Part shown: positions 42,121-53,983 of the stretch, one piece after another
Layout: every line of letters starts with the position of its first letter
Numbering within the stretch: the stretch's first letter is position 1
DNA from: Verrucomicrobiaceae bacterium
GTDB lineage: Bacteria > Verrucomicrobiota > Verrucomicrobiia > Verrucomicrobiales > Verrucomicrobiaceae
Direction of reading: 5' to 3'
Assembly (NCBI GenBank): GCA_016795485.1
Contig: JAEUHM010000043.1
Span: forward strand, 62,001 to 126,000
Length of the DNA stretch: 64,000 nucleotides
Notes under the pieces: generated by a model
Database searches by the model: none
What the model saw: the letters and a program-made list of their open reading frames with translations, nothing else
What the model was told of the DNA's origin: nothing
Position numbers and translations under genes: made by a program

Positions 42121-45100
42121 CTACTTCAAACTCATCAAATACGTGAGTAGATCACGGGCTTGCTCATCAGTGAGCGCATCAAGCAGTCCCTCTGGCATGA
42201 GACTCCGGCGGATGTAGCTAGTGCGCCGCACTTCTTGCTTGGGAATGCGGCGGTCAGATGCGCCCGGTTGGCGCACGATGAATGCGCTCTTGTCCTCACT
42301 CACAAAGAATCCATCCACAAGGTCGCCGTTCTCCAGCTCAACACGGAAAATGCGGTAACCTGGCTCCATGGCCGCGTTTGGGGTCAGGATGTTACGGAGA
42401 ACGGCTTCTAGTCCCATCGCGCCAGCACTGCTCAAGTTGGGGCCGATTTGACCTCCGGTGTTTCCAATCTGATGGCACGCGATGCAGATGGCGCTCAATG
42501 CTTTGCCTTTGGCAATGTCGCCGGGTGTTTTGACCAAATCGGTGAGGTGGTGAAACTTTTTGTCCAACGCAGCAGCTTGCTCGGCACTGAGGATGGGTGG
42601 GTAGTCCGTGGTCTTGGCGAGTCGGACACCTTTCTGGAAGGTTTTGCTATCGGTGGCAAAGGTTTCGCGGCTACGATCGAACGAGCTGCGGATCTCTCCT
42701 GCGGTCCGTTCCACTCTCCAAACACGAAACTCAGCCATCATGCCCGCAGTGCCTTTTTTCGGGCCGCTCCAGCCGATTCGGCAGTTCTCCCACTTCAGCG
42801 GTGCCGGTACCGTTGAGACGGCGTCCTGCTCACCGTTTTGGTAGATCTTGATGATGCCCTTTGCATCGCGAGTTACGGCAAGGTGAGTCCAAAGCTCTGG
42901 CGTCATTGGCTTATTTGCTACCGCCACATCATGCAGTTCACGTCCAGCGAACACACGGAACTTTGATTGGAAGAAGTTCATCTCACAGCCCCCTGGCACA
43001 CCGAGGATGTCATCTTCATTCCCGATGCCTGGGGCGAGTTTGACCCAGGTTTCTACGGTGAATGGACCATCAAGTGTGATCTTCGAGTCAATCCAAGCTT
43101 CTTCACTGCCATCAAAGGCAAGAACATCATGAAACACATGGCCCAGACTGGACATGAGCTTGTTTAGTTCGGAATCGTTGCCGAGCACTAACGACAATCT
43201 TTCTGCCGTGGGGCCGTCAAGGTCACTGGTGGGGAGTCGTTTTTCAGCAAGAGCCGCCACGATCGCTTTGGCACCGGGTTTGGTGGCAGAAAGAGTGTTC
43301 AATGCTGAGCGCTGTTGAGCGCTTGTTAGGCTAGAGTAGAGCTTGAAGAGCTGCTCCGAAGCGTTCGGGTTCTTGGAGGCTGTCAGTGCTGCTAGGGCGT
43401 CATCTCGAAGCAATGTTGGACCCGATTGAACGATCTCACTGAACAAATCGGTGGCACTGCTCCGCAACTCACGAAGCGCAAGCAACAGCGAACGGGTGCT
43501 TTCCATCGCTGCGGGCGTTTCTTTATCTGCCTTTCTCGCCATCGCTACGAGATCGTCCTCCAAAGATGTGAGTTGGAACTCACCGATCAGTCGCACGCTC
43601 AACTCACGCTCATCATTACTGCCGTTCAGCAGGTTCTTGGCGGCGTCACTGATCAAAGCTGAGATTTTGGCAGGATCGAGCTTGGTCCTCTGGGCGAGCA
43701 ACTTCTCTGCAATGACAGCCCGCGACTTGGGGTTCGATAGCAGCGCCTTCAAGGCATCTCCGCAGCCAATTTCGCTGGGAAACTGAGCAAGACGGAGAAG
43801 CTCCTCGTCATTGGGCGCACGATCTAGTTGAGGAAGGAGTTTGGCTACTCGTGAGGCGCTGCTCTTTGGTTCTAGAGCAAGAGATGCAAGCACCAAGGCT
43901 TCCACAGGCAATTTCGCGGCGGCTTGGGAATCCAGGAACTTTGCGACGACATCGGGATGACGCTCCAGGAACATGCGGACGAGAAAGCGCTCGAACTCGC
44001 GGTCATAGGCCTCGCGCACGGGGAGCTGCTTGTTGCCACGCGTGGAGGCGATGGTGAGGCCGTTGGTGAGGCTCGGTTTGGCGAAGGCGAGGAGTGTGGA
44101 GATGTTTTGATCGGACAGATTCCGACCGATCTGACTGATCTGAGCGAACTTACTGGTGGCGAGATACTCCTGTGCAGCAAAATGAGTCTGCGGGAGTTGT
44201 TTGCGGTCTTGAAGCTCCTGCCATGCGAGATGCGCCCTCCCAACAGGCTCAGCGCCAAGCATCGCGACGAGTGTGTCCGTGGCCTGCTTCGTGAAATCGG
44301 GGATTTCGTTTGTAGTTCGGGCTTTAGCCTGCGCTTCGACGCTCTCGGAACGGGCTGAAGCCCGAACTACGAACTTTGGCTTCACGCGCCAGATGCGGCC
44401 ACGGGTCTTGTCGCGGTCAGGATGCGCACGCGGCACCTCGTTGTGGGAGATGATCTTGTTGTACCAATCAACGATATAGATGCAGCCATCTGGGCCATTG
44501 GTAAGGGCGACAGGGCGGAAAAAGGGATCCTCGCAGGTGACCAGATCAGCAAGCTGGGCAAGCTTCCAATAGGCACCATCGCGTTGCATGGCGATGGTTT
44601 GAATCTTCGAGATGATGGGATTGGCGACGGCCATGGTGAGGTCGCTCGTAGTTCGGGCTTTAGCCCGTCCATCGTCGCTTTCAGAACGGGCTGAAGCCCG
44701 AACTACAAGCGATCCTGATTCGATAAACGCTAACCCACTCAATCCCGTGCCGCCCATGCGGAACTCGGCCTGGGGTGGGAAGTCGGGTTGGTAGCTTTTC
44801 TTCAGCGCCTCCATTCCGCCTGGGTAGTAGGCGTATTCGTGGAAGGGCATGACTGGATAGCCGTAGTCGTTCGCTTCTTGGATGAAGCACTCGCCTTCAC
44901 CTGAGATGACCAGGCCCCAAATGTTGTTTGGGCCGAGGCTGGTCATTTCAAAGTCGCTGCCATCAGGACGGAAGCGGGCCATGCCGCATTTTGGGTACTC
45001 GACGACGACATCGCTGCCGGGTTTGTGGACCTTACTAGTGTTGAAAAGGCCCTGCGCCATCCAGATCCAGCCGCCGGGGGCTCGTGTGAACTGATGCGGA

Positions 45101-46293
45101 AACAAATGTGAGTCCTGCACGCCAAATCCAGTGAGGATGACGTCAAACGTGTCCGCCTTGCCATCGCCATTGGTGTCTTTGTAGAGCTTCAAATCGTGGC
45201 CGTGCTGGACGTAGCAGGTGTCGCCATTGCCCCAGGGCAGGATGCCGAGCGGGATGGCTAGGCCGTCTGCGAAAACGGTCGGATTCGTGAGTCCACCCGC
45301 GGGAATCGGTCCATTCACCGACTCTCGCGGATAGACGAGCACTTTGTCTTTACCCTTGCTGGCATAGATCGCCTCAGCAGCAGCGGGGTTCTCGTTTGCA
45401 TCAATGGGATATTCGAGTGCGGTTTGCGTCCACATCCGCCCACGTTGATCGAAGTTGACGCTTACAAACTTTCCCAAGCCGTCACTCTCCTGGACCACCA
45501 GCTCGATCTCGTAGCCCTCTGGCAGATGGAAGAGCTTCTGTTGCTCGGCTGCGGTTCTTGCAGTGCCTTGCACGTTGTTGTAGCTGATATCGCGCTTGGG
45601 ATTGGCTGGCTTCTGCTTGTTCTGGTGAATGGGCTTTACCGTCTTCCAAGTCGGCACACCAGGTGTCGGAGGCAGTTCCTCAATCGTCACATCCTTCACC
45701 TGCACAAGGCAAATGCCACCGCTGTGGACTTGAGGCGCGATCTGGCCATCAAGCGCTATGTTTCCATCCGCTTCGGTGTAGTCGATGCACTTCACACCAT
45801 TGATCCAGGTCTGAATGCGCGGTCCCTCTGCGCGGATGCGATACTCATTCCAGCCAAAGACATCCACAGCCTTGTCCAAAGCGGCTTGTTGCTGAGGTGT
45901 GGGTGCCCAGATGACTTTATTGCGACGATGTTCGTCATAGATCTTGCCGAACCAGCCTGCTCCGCAGTCGATCTGATAGCCACTCATGGCAGCTCCCTGC
46001 CGAATAGAACGGATCTGGATGCCTGAGTTGATCATTCCGGTCTTCGGGTCGCCAGAGCACTTGATCTTGAGGTTGAGCTCGAAGTTTTGGAACGACTTCT
46101 TGGTGCTGATGAAGTAGTTCCTGTCGATTTTCTGAGTGGTAGAGCCTCCCGTGATTACGCCGTCCTCGACCCGCCAGATCTTCGGGTCGAACTCCCATCC
46201 ATCGAGCGTTTTTCCGTCGAATAAAGCAGTGGGTTCTGCCATGACGAACGTTGTCATGCAGGAAAAGATAGCGAGGAGTGTGGTGCGCATCAT
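42121..46293 (-). CDS. giant exported DUF1080 / PVC-type dehydrogenase / HEAT / LamG / cytochrome c protein
   Basis: The product is 1390 aa from the ATG at 46293, with a signal peptide. Order: DUF1080 jelly roll (LFDGKTLDGW, about 20-215); PVC-type membrane-bound dehydrogenase beta-propeller (from about LPEGYEIELVV, 260-690); HEAT-like helices (700-1090); a LamG/concanavalin-like domain (about 1095-1230, VETWVKLAPG); and a C-terminal c-type cytochrome with CIACHQ (about 1275) and a distal-ligand Met region. This is a hallmark PVC secreted enzyme for sugar or polysaccharide derivatives. Two ~59-bp palindromes (44312-44370, 44648-44706) interrupt it in frame, each adding about 20 residues (VVRASARSES...ARTT). 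It stands upstream of the oxidoreductase/kinase/enolase operon and downstream of an AraC regulator. Confidence 0.92.
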   Translation of the reverse strand: MMRTTLLAIFSCMTTFVMAEPTALFDGKTLDGWEFDPKIWRVEDGVITGGSTTQKIDRNYFISTKKSFQNFELNLKIKCSGDPKTGMINSGIQIRSIRQGAAMSGYQIDCGAGWFGKIYDEHRRNKVIWAPTPQQQAALDKAVDVFGWNEYRIRAEGPRIQTWINGVKCIDYTEADGNIALDGQIAPQVHSGGICLVQVKDVTIEELPPTPGVPTWKTVKPIHQNKQKPANPKRDISYNNVQGTARTAAEQQKLFHLPEGYEIELVVQESDGLGKFVSVNFDQRGRMWTQTALEYPIDANENPAAAEAIYASKGKDKVLVYPRESVNGPIPAGGLTNPTVFADGLAIPLGILPWGNGDTCYVQHGHDLKLYKDTNGDGKADTFDVILTGFGVQDSHLFPHQFTRAPGGWIWMAQGLFNTSKVHKPGSDVVVEYPKCGMARFRPDGSDFEMTSLGPNNIWGLVISGEGECFIQEANDYGYPVMPFHEYAYYPGGMEALKKSYQPDFPPQAEFRMGGTGLSGLAFIESGSLVVRASARSESDDGRAKARTTSDLTMAVANPIISKIQTIAMQRDGAYWKLAQLADLVTCEDPFFRPVALTNGPDGCIYIVDWYNKIISHNEVPRAHPDRDKTRGRIWRVKPKFVVRASARSESVEAQAKARTTNEIPDFTKQATDTLVAMLGAEPVGRAHLAWQELQDRKQLPQTHFAAQEYLATSKFAQISQIGRNLSDQNISTLLAFAKPSLTNGLTIASTRGNKQLPVREAYDREFERFLVRMFLERHPDVVAKFLDSQAAAKLPVEALVLASLALEPKSSASRVAKLLPQLDRAPNDEELLRLAQFPSEIGCGDALKALLSNPKSRAVIAEKLLAQRTKLDPAKISALISDAAKNLLNGSNDERELSVRLIGEFQLTSLEDDLVAMARKADKETPAAMESTRSLLLALRELRSSATDLFSEIVQSGPTLLRDDALAALTASKNPNASEQLFKLYSSLTSAQQRSALNTLSATKPGAKAIVAALAEKRLPTSDLDGPTAERLSLVLGNDSELNKLMSSLGHVFHDVLAFDGSEEAWIDSKITLDGPFTVETWVKLAPGIGNEDDILGVPGGCEMNFFQSKFRVFAGRELHDVAVANKPMTPELWTHLAVTRDAKGIIKIYQNGEQDAVSTVPAPLKWENCRIGWSGPKKGTAGMMAEFRVWRVERTAGEIRSSFDRSRETFATDSKTFQKGVRLAKTTDYPPILSAEQAAALDKKFHHLTDLVKTPGDIAKGKALSAICIACHQIGNTGGQIGPNLSSAGAMGLEAVLRNILTPNAAMEPGYRIFRVELENGDLVDGFFVSEDKSAFIVRQPGASDRRIPKQEVRRTSYIRRSLMPEGLLDALTDEQARDLLTYLMSLK
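44312..44370. repeat. REP palindrome, copy A, in frame inside the giant gene
   Basis: A 59-bp imperfect palindrome begins GTAGTTCGGGCTTTAGCC and ends with its inverted partner GGGCTGAAGCCCGAACTAC. It lies in frame and encodes a VVRASARSES...ARTT-like peptide. It is the same family as copies at 44648, 53175 and 53926. Confidence 0.9.
44648..44706. repeat. REP palindrome, copy B, in frame inside the giant gene
   Basis: A second 59-bp copy of the family, 336 bp from copy A. Its arms GTAGTTCGGGCTTTAGCC and GGGCTGAAGCCCGAACTAC are perfectly complementary over most of their length. It encodes a peptide nearly identical in its ends to that of copy A. Confidence 0.92.
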
Positions 46294-46364
46294 CGGGATA
46301 AGAACGCTGCGGATTGCAGCAGGTTCGCAGCACGATGTCCACACTCGGGTGACTAAAACCCACC

Positions 46365-50000: not shown

Positions 50001-50115
50001 GAAGTTTGATAAAAACGACTCGTAGAATGCGTAGGGGCGGCCCTTTGCCAAGGGGTTTCAGATGCTCTTTACCTCGTGTCACTGCCTGCTAACATCCCGG
50101 CCCCATTTCCGTCCC

Positions 50116-53100
50116 ATGATGACCAGCGCCCAGATCCGCCAATCGTTTCTCGACTTCTTCAAAGAGAAGCAGCACACCATCGTGCCCAGTGACAACGTCG
50201 GCTACACCAGCCGTGACGGTGCGCGCATCTTCACCAATGCTGGGATGAACCAGTTCGTGCCCATCTTCCTTGGCGAGCGTCCGGCAGATGTGGATACTTG
50301 GCCCGGAGTGCTGCACAAAGGACTGCCCACTCGCGCTGCTGATACCCAGAAGTGCATTCGTGCCGGCGGCAAGCACAACGACTTGGAGGACGTGGGTCTC
50401 GATACTTACCACCACACGCTTTTCGAGATGCTGGGGAACTGGTCGTTTGGCGACTACTTCAAAAAGGAAGCCATTTCCTGGGCCTGGGAGCTGGTGATTG
50501 AGCGCTGGAAGTTCCCACCCACACGCGTTTACGCCACCATCTACCAGCCAGATCCGTCCAAGGGCGATCCCGCTGATCGTGACCAGGAAGCCTGGGAAAT
50601 CTGGGCCGAGAAGTTCCGCAGCATCGGCCTCGATCCCGACATCCACATCGTCAATGGCAACAAGAAGGACAACTTCTGGATGATGGGTGACACCGGTCCC
50701 TGTGGACCCTGCACGGAAATCCACATCGACCTCACCCCTGGCCCACCTAATCTCGATGAAGACCGTCAGCGCGAGGGCCGCAAGCTGGTGAATGGCAGTG
50801 ATGCGAGCTGCATCGAGATCTGGAACAACGTGTTCATCCAGTACAACGCCAATCCCGACGGCACCTTCAGTCCGCTGCCTGCCAAGCATGTCGATACAGG
50901 CATGGGCTTCGAGCGCGTGTGCAGCATCATCCAAGGCACAAAAAACTTCACCGACTTTGAGAACGCCAAGATCAGCAACTACGACACGGACGTGTTCAAG
51001 CCGATCTTCGATGAGCTAACCAAGCTCTCTGGCAAAACATACGCCAGCACGCTGCCCAAGGCCAACGCCCAGGGCAATGTCGTGCCTGTCACCGAGCAAG
51101 AAAAGATCGACGTGGCTTTCCGCGTCATTGCCGACCATATCCGCACTCTGTCGTTCGCCATTGCGGACGGCATCCAGCCTGGCAACAGCGATCGCAATTA
51201 CACCCTCCGCCGCATTCTCCGCCGGGCAGTCAAATATGGCCGCACGCTCGACTTCAAAGAGCCCTTCTTCTACAAACTCGTCGATGTACTCGCCGCTCAA
51301 ATGGGCGACGTGTTCCCCGAGTTGCGCGCCAAGAAGGAGCAGGTCAAATCGGTGCTGAAACTGGAGGAGGAGGCGTTTAACCGCACTCTCGACCGCGGCA
51401 TGGCACTCTTTGAAGAAGCCGCAACGTTCATCCCGAAAATGGATGCGTTAGTTGACCACGTTGATGTGACACTTGCCAAATTCGAAGGCACGGATCAGGA
51501 GCTAATGGAATACTTTGGAGATATTCTTTGGCCTGACACAACTTACGACCACAAGAACACTAACATCATGTATCCGGTCTATCTCGGCGCAGCCGAGTAT
51601 GGAACGCCTGCGCAAGACAAGTTTGCAGATGCTGTGCGCGAGTTGGTCGATGTTTCCTCTGAGAATGTTGGCGCTGACAAATTCACCGCAGTTTATCTCT
51701 CGGATGTTCGTGAATATTTACCGAAGGTCCGTGCTTCGAAGGGAGTCGTGAGCGCAGAGTTTGCCTTCCAGCTCTACGACACCTACGGCTTCCCGCTCGA
51801 CCTTACCGAGCTGATGGCCCGCGAGCGTGGTCTTACCGTTGACACTTCTGGCTTCGAGAAGCTCATGGACGAGCAGAAGGAACGCGCCCGTGCTGCAATG
51901 AAAAAGAACGTGGTCGCTCTCAGCGAGATCGAAACCAAGACGCCGACCAAGTTCATTGGTTATGACGCGCTGGATGCTGAGGTGAAGGTGCTTGAGGTCG
52001 TGTCGATGAAGGACAAGACCGCCATCGTGCTGGATGCTTCTTCTTGCTATGCCGAGATGGGCGGACAGGTGGGAGACACCGCTCAGTTCATCGTCGGAGC
52101 CAACACGTTCGTGATTGGCAACACCACCAAGGTGGGCAATACCTGGCTGCATTTCGTCGAGGGTGAAGATGCTCCGACAGTAGGCACTAGCGGTCGTTTG
52201 GCAGTCGATCCAGCGCGCCGTCACGCCATCGAGCGTCACCACACCGTCACCCACATCCTGCACTGGGCTTTGCATGAAGTGGTCAGCCACGAAGCCACGC
52301 AGAAGGGGTCCAATGTCGGTCCGGACAAGCTCAGCTTTGACTTCAACAGCGCCGCTCTTACCGCCCAGCAACTCGCCGACATTGAGCGGCTGGTGAACGA
52401 GCGCATTGTGGACAATGCACCCGTTTCCTGGACAGAAGTTCCTTACAAGGACGTGCAGACCCGGAAGGACATCATGCAGCTCTTCGGCGAGAAATACCCG
52501 GAGAACGTCCGCGTGGTGCAGATCGGTGGCGCGGCTGGTTCATTGAGCGGCTACAGCATGGAACTCTGTGGTGGCACGCACACCCGCCACACAGGCGAGA
52601 TTGGCCTCTTCCGCCTCTCCAGCGAGAGCGCGGTGGCGGCAGGCATTCGTCGTATCGAAGGCATCGCGGGACTGGAAGCCTACAACCTCGCCCGCGCAGA
52701 ATCCGATTTGCTCAAAGCACTGGCTGGGAAAGTCTCCGCTCAAGGCATGCACGACATCGAGAAGAAGATCGAGTCCCTCCTAGATCAGCAGAAGGCGCTG
52801 GAGAAAGCGCTGAAGGCCGCCCAACAGCGCGAAGCTTCCGGGCGCGCCAAAGACCTTCTCGCTAAGGCTGAAAACAACGCCATCATCGTCAATCTCGGCG
52901 ATGTGGATGCGGATTACGCCGTGGCCGTGAGCGATGCACTGAAGGGCAACTTCAACGGAGTCATCGTCCTCGCAGCAACCGCTGGTGGCAGCGTGGCGCT
53001 CATCGCCAGCGTGGCAAAAGACCTCCAGGCTAAAGTCCAAGCCGGCAAGATCATCCAGACCATAGCGCCTATCGTCGGAGGCAAAGGCGGCGGAAAGCCA

Positions 53101-53178
53101 GACTTTGCCCGCGGTGGCGGCAAGGATGTCAGCAAGGTGGATGCTGCCTTGGCGGAAGCGCGGAAGCTCTGCTCGTAG
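50116..53178 (+). CDS. alaS: alanyl-tRNA synthetase with internal insertion
   Basis: The product is 1020 aa, against about 875 in E. coli. Class II motifs appear in TSRDGARIFTNAGMNQFVP and the core continues normally to FEEAATFIPK. Then an insertion of roughly 95-100 residues (about 443-543; DNA 51440-51745) occurs before the standard FQLYDTYGFPLDLTE. The editing domain has HHTVTH and CGGTHTRHTGEIG (zinc/editing site). The C-Ala domain ends in a glycine-rich tail. The insertion is visibly less GC-biased in third positions (GTT, GAT, TTA, GAA codons) than flanking parts, so it may be of different origin. The stop codon TAG lies in the first bases of a REP palindrome at 53175. Confidence 0.95.
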   Translation: MMTSAQIRQSFLDFFKEKQHTIVPSDNVGYTSRDGARIFTNAGMNQFVPIFLGERPADVDTWPGVLHKGLPTRAADTQKCIRAGGKHNDLEDVGLDTYHHTLFEMLGNWSFGDYFKKEAISWAWELVIERWKFPPTRVYATIYQPDPSKGDPADRDQEAWEIWAEKFRSIGLDPDIHIVNGNKKDNFWMMGDTGPCGPCTEIHIDLTPGPPNLDEDRQREGRKLVNGSDASCIEIWNNVFIQYNANPDGTFSPLPAKHVDTGMGFERVCSIIQGTKNFTDFENAKISNYDTDVFKPIFDELTKLSGKTYASTLPKANAQGNVVPVTEQEKIDVAFRVIADHIRTLSFAIADGIQPGNSDRNYTLRRILRRAVKYGRTLDFKEPFFYKLVDVLAAQMGDVFPELRAKKEQVKSVLKLEEEAFNRTLDRGMALFEEAATFIPKMDALVDHVDVTLAKFEGTDQELMEYFGDILWPDTTYDHKNTNIMYPVYLGAAEYGTPAQDKFADAVRELVDVSSENVGADKFTAVYLSDVREYLPKVRASKGVVSAEFAFQLYDTYGFPLDLTELMARERGLTVDTSGFEKLMDEQKERARAAMKKNVVALSEIETKTPTKFIGYDALDAEVKVLEVVSMKDKTAIVLDASSCYAEMGGQVGDTAQFIVGANTFVIGNTTKVGNTWLHFVEGEDAPTVGTSGRLAVDPARRHAIERHHTVTHILHWALHEVVSHEATQKGSNVGPDKLSFDFNSAALTAQQLADIERLVNERIVDNAPVSWTEVPYKDVQTRKDIMQLFGEKYPENVRVVQIGGAAGSLSGYSMELCGGTHTRHTGEIGLFRLSSESAVAAGIRRIEGIAGLEAYNLARAESDLLKALAGKVSAQGMHDIEKKIESLLDQQKALEKALKAAQQREASGRAKDLLAKAENNAIIVNLGDVDADYAVAVSDALKGNFNGVIVLAATAGGSVALIASVAKDLQAKVQAGKIIQTIAPIVGGKGGGKPDFARGGGKDVSKVDAALAEARKLCS

Positions 53179-53233
53179 TTCGAGCTTCAGCTCGCTCCCT
53201 GTGCCTCCTGAAACGAGCTGAAGCTCGAACTAC
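53175..53233. repeat. REP palindrome, copy C
   Basis: A 59-bp copy with arms GTAGTTCGAGCTTCAGCTCG and CGAGCTGAAGCTCGAACTAC. Its bases GTAG supply the TAG stop codon of alaS. It lies 23 bp before the RAYT start. Confidence 0.92.
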
Positions 53234-53256: not shown

Positions 53257-53856
53257 ATGTATCAATGGAGAAAAATGACGGCTGAGGAGAGGGAGTCGGT
53301 GTTGGCTCATCGAAAACAACTTCAGCGTCCGTGGCACACGCCACCACATCCTCTGGGCGGAGCGGGTGAGTATCATCTTACGGCAGCGTGTTATGAGCAT
53401 AAGGTGATCATTGGACTGTCACCCAAGCGGATGGATGAGTCTGTGGCGCAGATGTTCGAAGCTTTGGCTGATGTAGATGTCAAAGCCTGGTGTTTGTTGC
53501 GCAATCACTACCATCTCTTTGTTAAGGTCGAAGATTTGAGGGCCGCACTCTCCACTCTGGGCCGACTTCACGGACGAACTGCATTTGATTGGAATGGTTC
53601 AGACGGAACTCGTGGCCGTAGAGTCTGGCACAGCATCGCAGATCGACAGATTCGCAACGAAGCCCACGGTTGGGCCACTTTGAACTACATTCACCACAAT
53701 CCAGTGCGGCATGGATATGTGGAGAAGTGGCAGGATTGGGCGTGGTCGAGTGCGCGGGCCTACCTTGCCGAAGTAGGCCATCAAAAAGCCGCTCAGGCGT
53801 GGAGGGCGTATCCTGTGCTGGAATATGGTGCAGGCTGGGATGATGCCTGTTTGTAG
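53257..53856 (+). CDS. REP-associated tyrosine transposase (RAYT)
   Basis: The product is 199 aa, the normal RAYT size. It shows the IS200/Y1 (PF01797-like) fold: the HUH metal motif in LLRNHYHLFVK (His84, His86) and the catalytic tyrosine in NYIHHNPVRHGYVEKW (Tyr144), followed by DWAWSSARAYL, the RAYT family signature. Such enzymes nick and paste REP sequences through single-stranded DNA. Start ATG 53257 gives the YQWRK N-terminus. The flanking palindromes are its probable substrates. The TAG stop codon lies inside the truncated palindrome at 53853. Confidence 0.9.
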   Translation: MYQWRKMTAEERESVLAHRKQLQRPWHTPPHPLGGAGEYHLTAACYEHKVIIGLSPKRMDESVAQMFEALADVDVKAWCLLRNHYHLFVKVEDLRAALSTLGRLHGRTAFDWNGSDGTRGRRVWHSIADRQIRNEAHGWATLNYIHHNPVRHGYVEKWQDWAWSSARAYLAEVGHQKAAQAWRAYPVLEYGAGWDDACL

Positions 53857-53925: not shown

Positions 53926-53983
53926 GTAGTTCGAGCTTTAGCTCGCTTCCTGTGCCACAGAAACGAGCTAAAGCTCGAACTAC
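53926..53983. repeat. REP palindrome, copy D
   Basis: A 58-bp copy with perfectly complementary arms GTAGTTCGAGCTTTAGCTCG and CGAGCTAAAGCTCGAACTAC, 69 bp after the RAYT stop and 98 bp before hipB. Confidence 0.92.

Follow-up and report, generated by a model that had tools for sequence, protein, structure and literature searches.

In-frame intragenic REPs with a GTAG head, present as hairpins or dimers that encode 20 to 30 amino acids, were reported in 2013 (Di Nocera et al., PMC3733652), and the phenomenon as such is already known from that work. The GTAG intragenic cases were most numerous in Opitutus terrae (also Verrucomicrobia), tolerance of the inserts in linkers was proposed, and two recB genes of Xanthomonas were described in which different REPs occupy roughly the same position (PMC3733652). 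More generally, REPs are recognized by a GT(A/G)G head, and RAYT genes are flanked by two inverted REPs (Nunvar et al., PMC2817692). An inverted REP doublet with a spacer is termed a REPIN (Bertels and Rainey, PMC3116915). Rickettsia palindromic elements, which are about 150 bp long, also lie in frame in unrelated ORFs and are fused into the product (reviewed in PMC10969869). Measured against the open-access literature, the new elements of this study are the family members described below, the repeated invasion of linkers by many REP families, several of which match RAYT-flanking REPs, and a test of pre-adaptation to coding DNA.

The window analyzed here, a 64,000-nucleotide stretch of a Verrucomicrobiaceae contig, contains an ORF on the minus strand (positions 42121 to 46344) that encodes 1407 amino acids and has no internal stops. 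Its product combines a DUF1080-type 3-keto-disaccharide hydrolase, a DUF7133/PVC-type dehydrogenase beta-propeller, LamG, and a CxxCH cytochrome c. Going by named orthologues, the host bacterium is kin of Prosthecobacter and Brevifollis. As the first-pass annotation had stated, two palindromes of 59 bp each lie in frame in this coding gene, both in the same phase: copy B (44648 to 44706, minus strand), which is upstream in gene order and encodes VVRASARSESDDGRAKARTT (residues 547 to 566), and copy A (44312 to 44370, minus strand), which is downstream and encodes VVRASARSESVEAQAKARTT (residues 659 to 678). Both had been assigned to the dehydrogenase part. This holds for B, which occupies a loop inside the propeller domain (Pfam DUF7133, residues 267 to 657), but A follows the domain at its boundary, in the linker directly behind the propeller. 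The AlphaFold model of residues 260 to 720 is a beta-propeller (mean pLDDT, 81.8) whose best PDB matches are PQQ-dependent sugar and glucose dehydrogenases. The insert peptides A and B appear in this model as low-confidence loops (pLDDT, about 50 to 60), a placement that fits tolerated loops.

Copies A and B are REPINs and are 83% identical across 72 nt. Each is built of two 20-nt units, GTAG-TT-CGGGCT-TY-AGCCCG, with a GTAG head, a CGGGCT/AGCCCG stem, and a 2-nt loop, inverted across a 19-nt spacer. In both copies, the GT(A/G)G head thus precedes an imperfect palindrome whose short middle part is unpaired, and the inverted doublet around the spacer is able to fold as one long hairpin. The arms (22 to 27 nt) are 91 to 93% complementary, and as RNA both copies are predicted to form long hairpins (−38 to −53 kcal/mol; z, −6.7 to −10.6). 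An alignment of 172 sampled copies gave the consensus G-Y-T-Y-GTAG-TT-CGRGCT-TY-AGCYCG; GYTY, which precedes GTAG in most of these copies, extends the conserved part to a whole unit of 66 to 67 bp, and no strong conservation was seen beyond it. Including the 4-nt GYTY flank on each side, the copies in the window measure 67 bp and extend from 44308 to 44374 (A) and from 44644 to 44710 (B).

The family is dispersed, restricted to this lineage, and mainly extragenic, with A and B as intragenic exceptions. Its 18-nt core, GTAGTTCGGGCTTTAGCC, had 8 matches with up to 3 mismatches in the window (0.03 expected). A sister subfamily has CGAGCT/AGCTCG stems and is represented in the window by a REPIN at 53175 to 53233, at the 3′ end of ORF 50062-53178, and by an intergenic 58-bp REPIN at 53926 to 53983. 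The TAG stop of ORF 50062-53178 is provided by the GTAG head of the former, and the latter is situated downstream of ORF 53257-53856, 751 bp from the former. The genome of the host contains only 6 exact copies of the CGGGCT subfamily and about 28 units in total. Exact copies were detected in 29 of 68 related family genomes, with a maximum of 58 in one of them (G030), while a reversed-pattern control gave a single match. At several loci (L366, L367, and L018 to L025), small mosaic clusters are made up of sister-subfamily REPINs and a second REP, GTAGCGGAACTCGCCAGAGTTCCG, in alternation.

Orthologues do not all carry the inserted segments; segment-free orthologues were found at both sites. Linkers of REP-free orthologues are mostly short (ESGPLKDKEAAHTMAVANPI at site B and GRIWRVKPKGAKTEVADF at site A), and median linker lengths with and without a REP were 37 versus 21 amino acids at site B and 31 versus 14 at site A. 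The addition of about 20 residues by each copy, as originally described, is correct for the encoded peptides, which are 20 amino acids long, but relative to orthologues lacking the inserts, the stretches are longer by 16 amino acids at B and 18 at A. This gain is smaller than the element length, which implies that some codons of the host gene have been replaced or have since been lost. A clean empty site for A or B was not found among the orthologues, the nearest of which are too distant for reading the exact junction or a target duplication such as marks MITEs. Copy A is shared, with the same left junction, by an orthologue in G030 (L115, identical to L039) whose protein identity is 76% across the gene; it has probably been inherited since the split from that orthologue, with its arms near-intact. 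The family of copy B occupies the same loop in two orthologues (L096 and L107).

To place these insertions in a wider context, REP-like units were sought with a head-plus-hairpin scan in 92 non-redundant orthologues, mostly from metagenome-assembled genomes; the scan took in open frames, so broken copies or gene-breaking insertions could be missed. It recovered 150 units, compared to 62 to 65 in synonymous shuffles, and at least one REP-like hairpin was present in 42 of the 92 orthologues. Ten 15-residue bins, equivalent to 150 of the 1407 positions, held 101 of the 150 units, where about 7 were expected. These define five hotspot linkers, around residues 240 to 248, 547 to 566, 655 to 684, 939 to 950, and 1221 to 1233 of the host protein. 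Site B has been occupied by the families GTAGTTCGGGC, GTGGCTTCGGC, GTAGTCCAGTTGCG, GTGGCCCACTTT, GTGGTCCGCACT, GTAGTCCCGGC, GTAGCGCAAGC, and GTGGACCTCTCT, and site A by about eight families. The hotspot families are unrelated in stem sequence. About half of them were also found elsewhere in the sampled DNA; the remaining palindromes were seen at hotspot sites only and are less certain, with GTAGCTCGACATTCC and GTAGCTCAGGATTTC, for example, each seen once. Control heads gave 44 to 136 matches (136 for G[CA][TC]G), which makes total counts alone weak, and the hotspot argument is carried by the clustering and the sequence families rather than by totals. The GTAG head, the hairpin, and the dimers inside ORFs are as described previously (PMC3733652); here, in contrast, one protein family has received many REP families in five linkers, several of them with RAYT-flank matches.

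Chance palindromes in coding DNA were rejected as the main cause, both by the excess of inverted (71) over mirror (38) and complement (33) matches and by the drop in REP-like units after synonymous shuffling. A single source for every hotspot palindrome was likewise rejected, as their stems, heads, and loops differ. Palindromes near residue 344 resemble conserved codons and were not regarded as elements. Two ORF breaks were inspected, and no hotspot-family REP was present at either. In L139 and L146, the palindrome at site B (GTGGCCCACTTTCTCCGAAAGTGG) overlaps host ESGPL codons that are conserved in REP-less orthologues; a local origin or an insertion at microhomology is possible for this palindrome.

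In relatives, inverted cognate REPs (GTAGTTTGGGCTTYAGCCCAA, GTGGCTTCGGCTTTAGCCGAA, GTAGCCCAGTTGCGCCGCAACTGG, GTAGAACGGGTTTTCCAACCCG, and GGAGCGCGGACACTCCTGTCCGC) border RAYT genes on both sides, and several of these RAYT-flanking REPs match hotspot families. In G016, a RAYT is flanked by GTAGYCCAGTTGCGCCGCAACTGG, and the same REP is present at site B (L052/L110). In G030, copies of GTGATGCGGGCACTCCTGCCCGC surround a further Y1 gene (L345/L363), and the GTGATGCGGGCACTCCTGCCCGC palindrome also lies in frame in the dehydrogenase gene, near residue 913. Each of these two genomes thus has a RAYT/Y1-REP unit together with an in-frame copy of its family in the dehydrogenase gene. The RAYT-flanking REP nearest to the family of the window is GTAGTTTGGGCTTYAGCCCAA, at L368/L369 in G064/G062. 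A RAYT flanked by exactly GTAGTTCGGGCTTYAGCCCG was not found, RAYTs of the L368/L369 type were absent at E ≤ 1e−40 from the host genome and from G030 with its 58 copies, and the Y1 transposases of the host genome are surrounded by other repeats or none, not by GTAGTTCGGGC REPs. The family of the window shares the inverted doublets with a spacer and the GT(A/G)G head with the REPIN/RAYT system, in which RAYTs are bordered by two inverted REPs, as are the RAYTs of the relatives (PMC3116915, PMC2817692); however, the copies in those studies were extragenic, whereas A and B lie in a reading frame and their exact cognate RAYT was not found. Judged by structure and close kin rather than by a transposase of its own, the family looks like part of a RAYT system. 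One Y1 transposase gene of the host genome (L031; G000 C7:81590-84931) has several copies of CCCAGGGCATCGCTACGCTCAGCCCTGGG around it, a palindrome without a GTAG head. Two RAYT genes (L342 and L341) run into their own flanking REPs, and their C termini are apparently REP encoded (e.g., ..KVVWASAQAFK..).

Other protein-coding insertions were found both in the host genome and in relatives. A survey of 1.26 Mb of the host genome yielded two more in-frame units, one in a second PVC dehydrogenase gene (VVRASARSGTSERAEARTT) and one in a serine dehydratase gene. An in-frame REP is also present in the L169 gene of a cultured relative, Brevifollis gellanilyticus. By a simple codon model fitted to sequence of the host genome, genes harbored 16 of the 57 clusters of G030 and 5 of the 38 of G064, far below the coding fraction. 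These included genes for isoleucyl-tRNA synthetase (IleRS), a squalene-hopene cyclase-like protein, a LutB-like protein, and several PSD1/DUF1553 proteins. The IleRS gene (L227; G030 C3:215300-222100) encodes a normally essential enzyme and contains in-frame REPs, with RSSGFSP at residue 220. PSD1/DUF1553 proteins have a second recurrent loop, in which the insert is placed between a QSS motif and DPxN; where both motifs were recognized, this loop had 19 to 24 residues with a REP pair and about 10 in REP-free paralogues. In one PSD1 paralogue of G030, the insert belongs to another family, GTAGAACGAGTTTTCC, and G030 also contains the RAYT-type unit of that family. The resemblance to Rickettsia palindromic elements drawn by the first-pass annotation extends to the outcome, namely in-frame insertion in unrelated ORFs (IleRS, PSD1, DUF7133, serine dehydratase, LutB-like, and others), but not to size, sequence, or host. 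Membership in that group was rejected, as these are GTAG REPINs of 59 to 67 bp in Verrucomicrobiaceae, compared to elements of about 150 bp in Rickettsia.

As REPINs, copies A and B very probably entered without regard to frame and survived in tolerant linkers where they left the frame open. A REPIN of two inverted GTAG REPs and a 19-nt spacer, of the kind mobilized by RAYT (Y1/HUH) transposases, would enter DNA and, within genes, would survive only where its phase is free of stops and the overall gain or loss of length leaves the downstream codons in register. Survival would also require that the 15 to 20 new residues be placed in a loop or interdomain linker, where the peptides, presumably expressed, would be harmless. 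Surviving copies would then pass on as ordinary coding sequence, as parts of apparently intact proteins. In this lineage, different REP families have repeatedly entered the same few linkers.

The first-pass annotation had instead proposed that the repeat is adapted, or preselected, to be tolerated in coding DNA, in which case selection acting between insertions would have shaped REPs so that either strand yields an open, harmless peptide. In line with this, A, B, and many genic copies read VVRA...ARTT, the peptide is independent of orientation through strand symmetry, and the CGG/CGA stem difference between the subfamilies is synonymous in the VVRA phase. Either orientation is indeed open, but for the 59-bp unit in one of three phases only; the 58-bp unit has two open phases per strand, and both open phases, VVRA.. 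and SSGFSP.., are used in genes. Across 28 REPs (26 from RAYT flanks), an average of 4.75 of the 6 phases were open, compared to 4.71 after stem permutation and 4.81 after full shuffling, so that the open phases match those of randomized palindromes. The GTAG head carries a stop (TAG) in one phase, and genic copies are depleted. Pre-adaptation of REPs to coding DNA is therefore not supported, and selection of this kind is very improbable; the pattern arises because survivors were selected.

Target preference of the RAYTs for a DNA sequence or single-stranded structure could generate hotspots independently of protein tolerance, as different families recur in the five linkers and in the loop of PSD1. 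We consider this improbable, since left junctions differ by several codons within a linker, host sequences differ, the sites are common to families with different RAYTs, and strong conservation ends at GYTY. The recurrence of the same linkers, together with a net gain below the element length that implies replacement of host or older sequence, might also reflect a single ancient invasion that seeded later families, with new REPs replacing older ones by palindrome recombination. However, the linker is short, conserved, and free of REPs in many orthologues (KDKEAAH; GAKTE), with no palindrome remnant visible, and such a succession is unlikely. The strong hairpins and the probable inheritance of copy A with near-intact arms since the split from L115 would agree with retention as a useful peptide or mRNA hairpin, acting through linker extension, mRNA stability, or translational pausing. 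As the same linkers are filled by unrelated families with unrelated peptides and about half of the orthologues have no REP at all, there is little reason to expect that the inserts are kept for such a benefit. Entry without regard to frame, followed by survival in tolerant linkers, remains the preferred explanation.

It is conceivable, if rather unlikely, that RAYT/REP systems repeatedly provide Verrucomicrobiaceae with interdomain linkers, unrelated REP families supplying new linker peptides at fixed positions of the dehydrogenase and PSD1 proteins, and that some of these have been retained as useful. The part played by mobile palindromes in protein evolution has so far been judged from isolated examples. 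A single protein family with numerous orthologues, sites both with and without inserts, a wide range of REP families, and RAYT genes within one bacterial group make this question testable, including target choice versus survival, frame use, and the effect on the protein.
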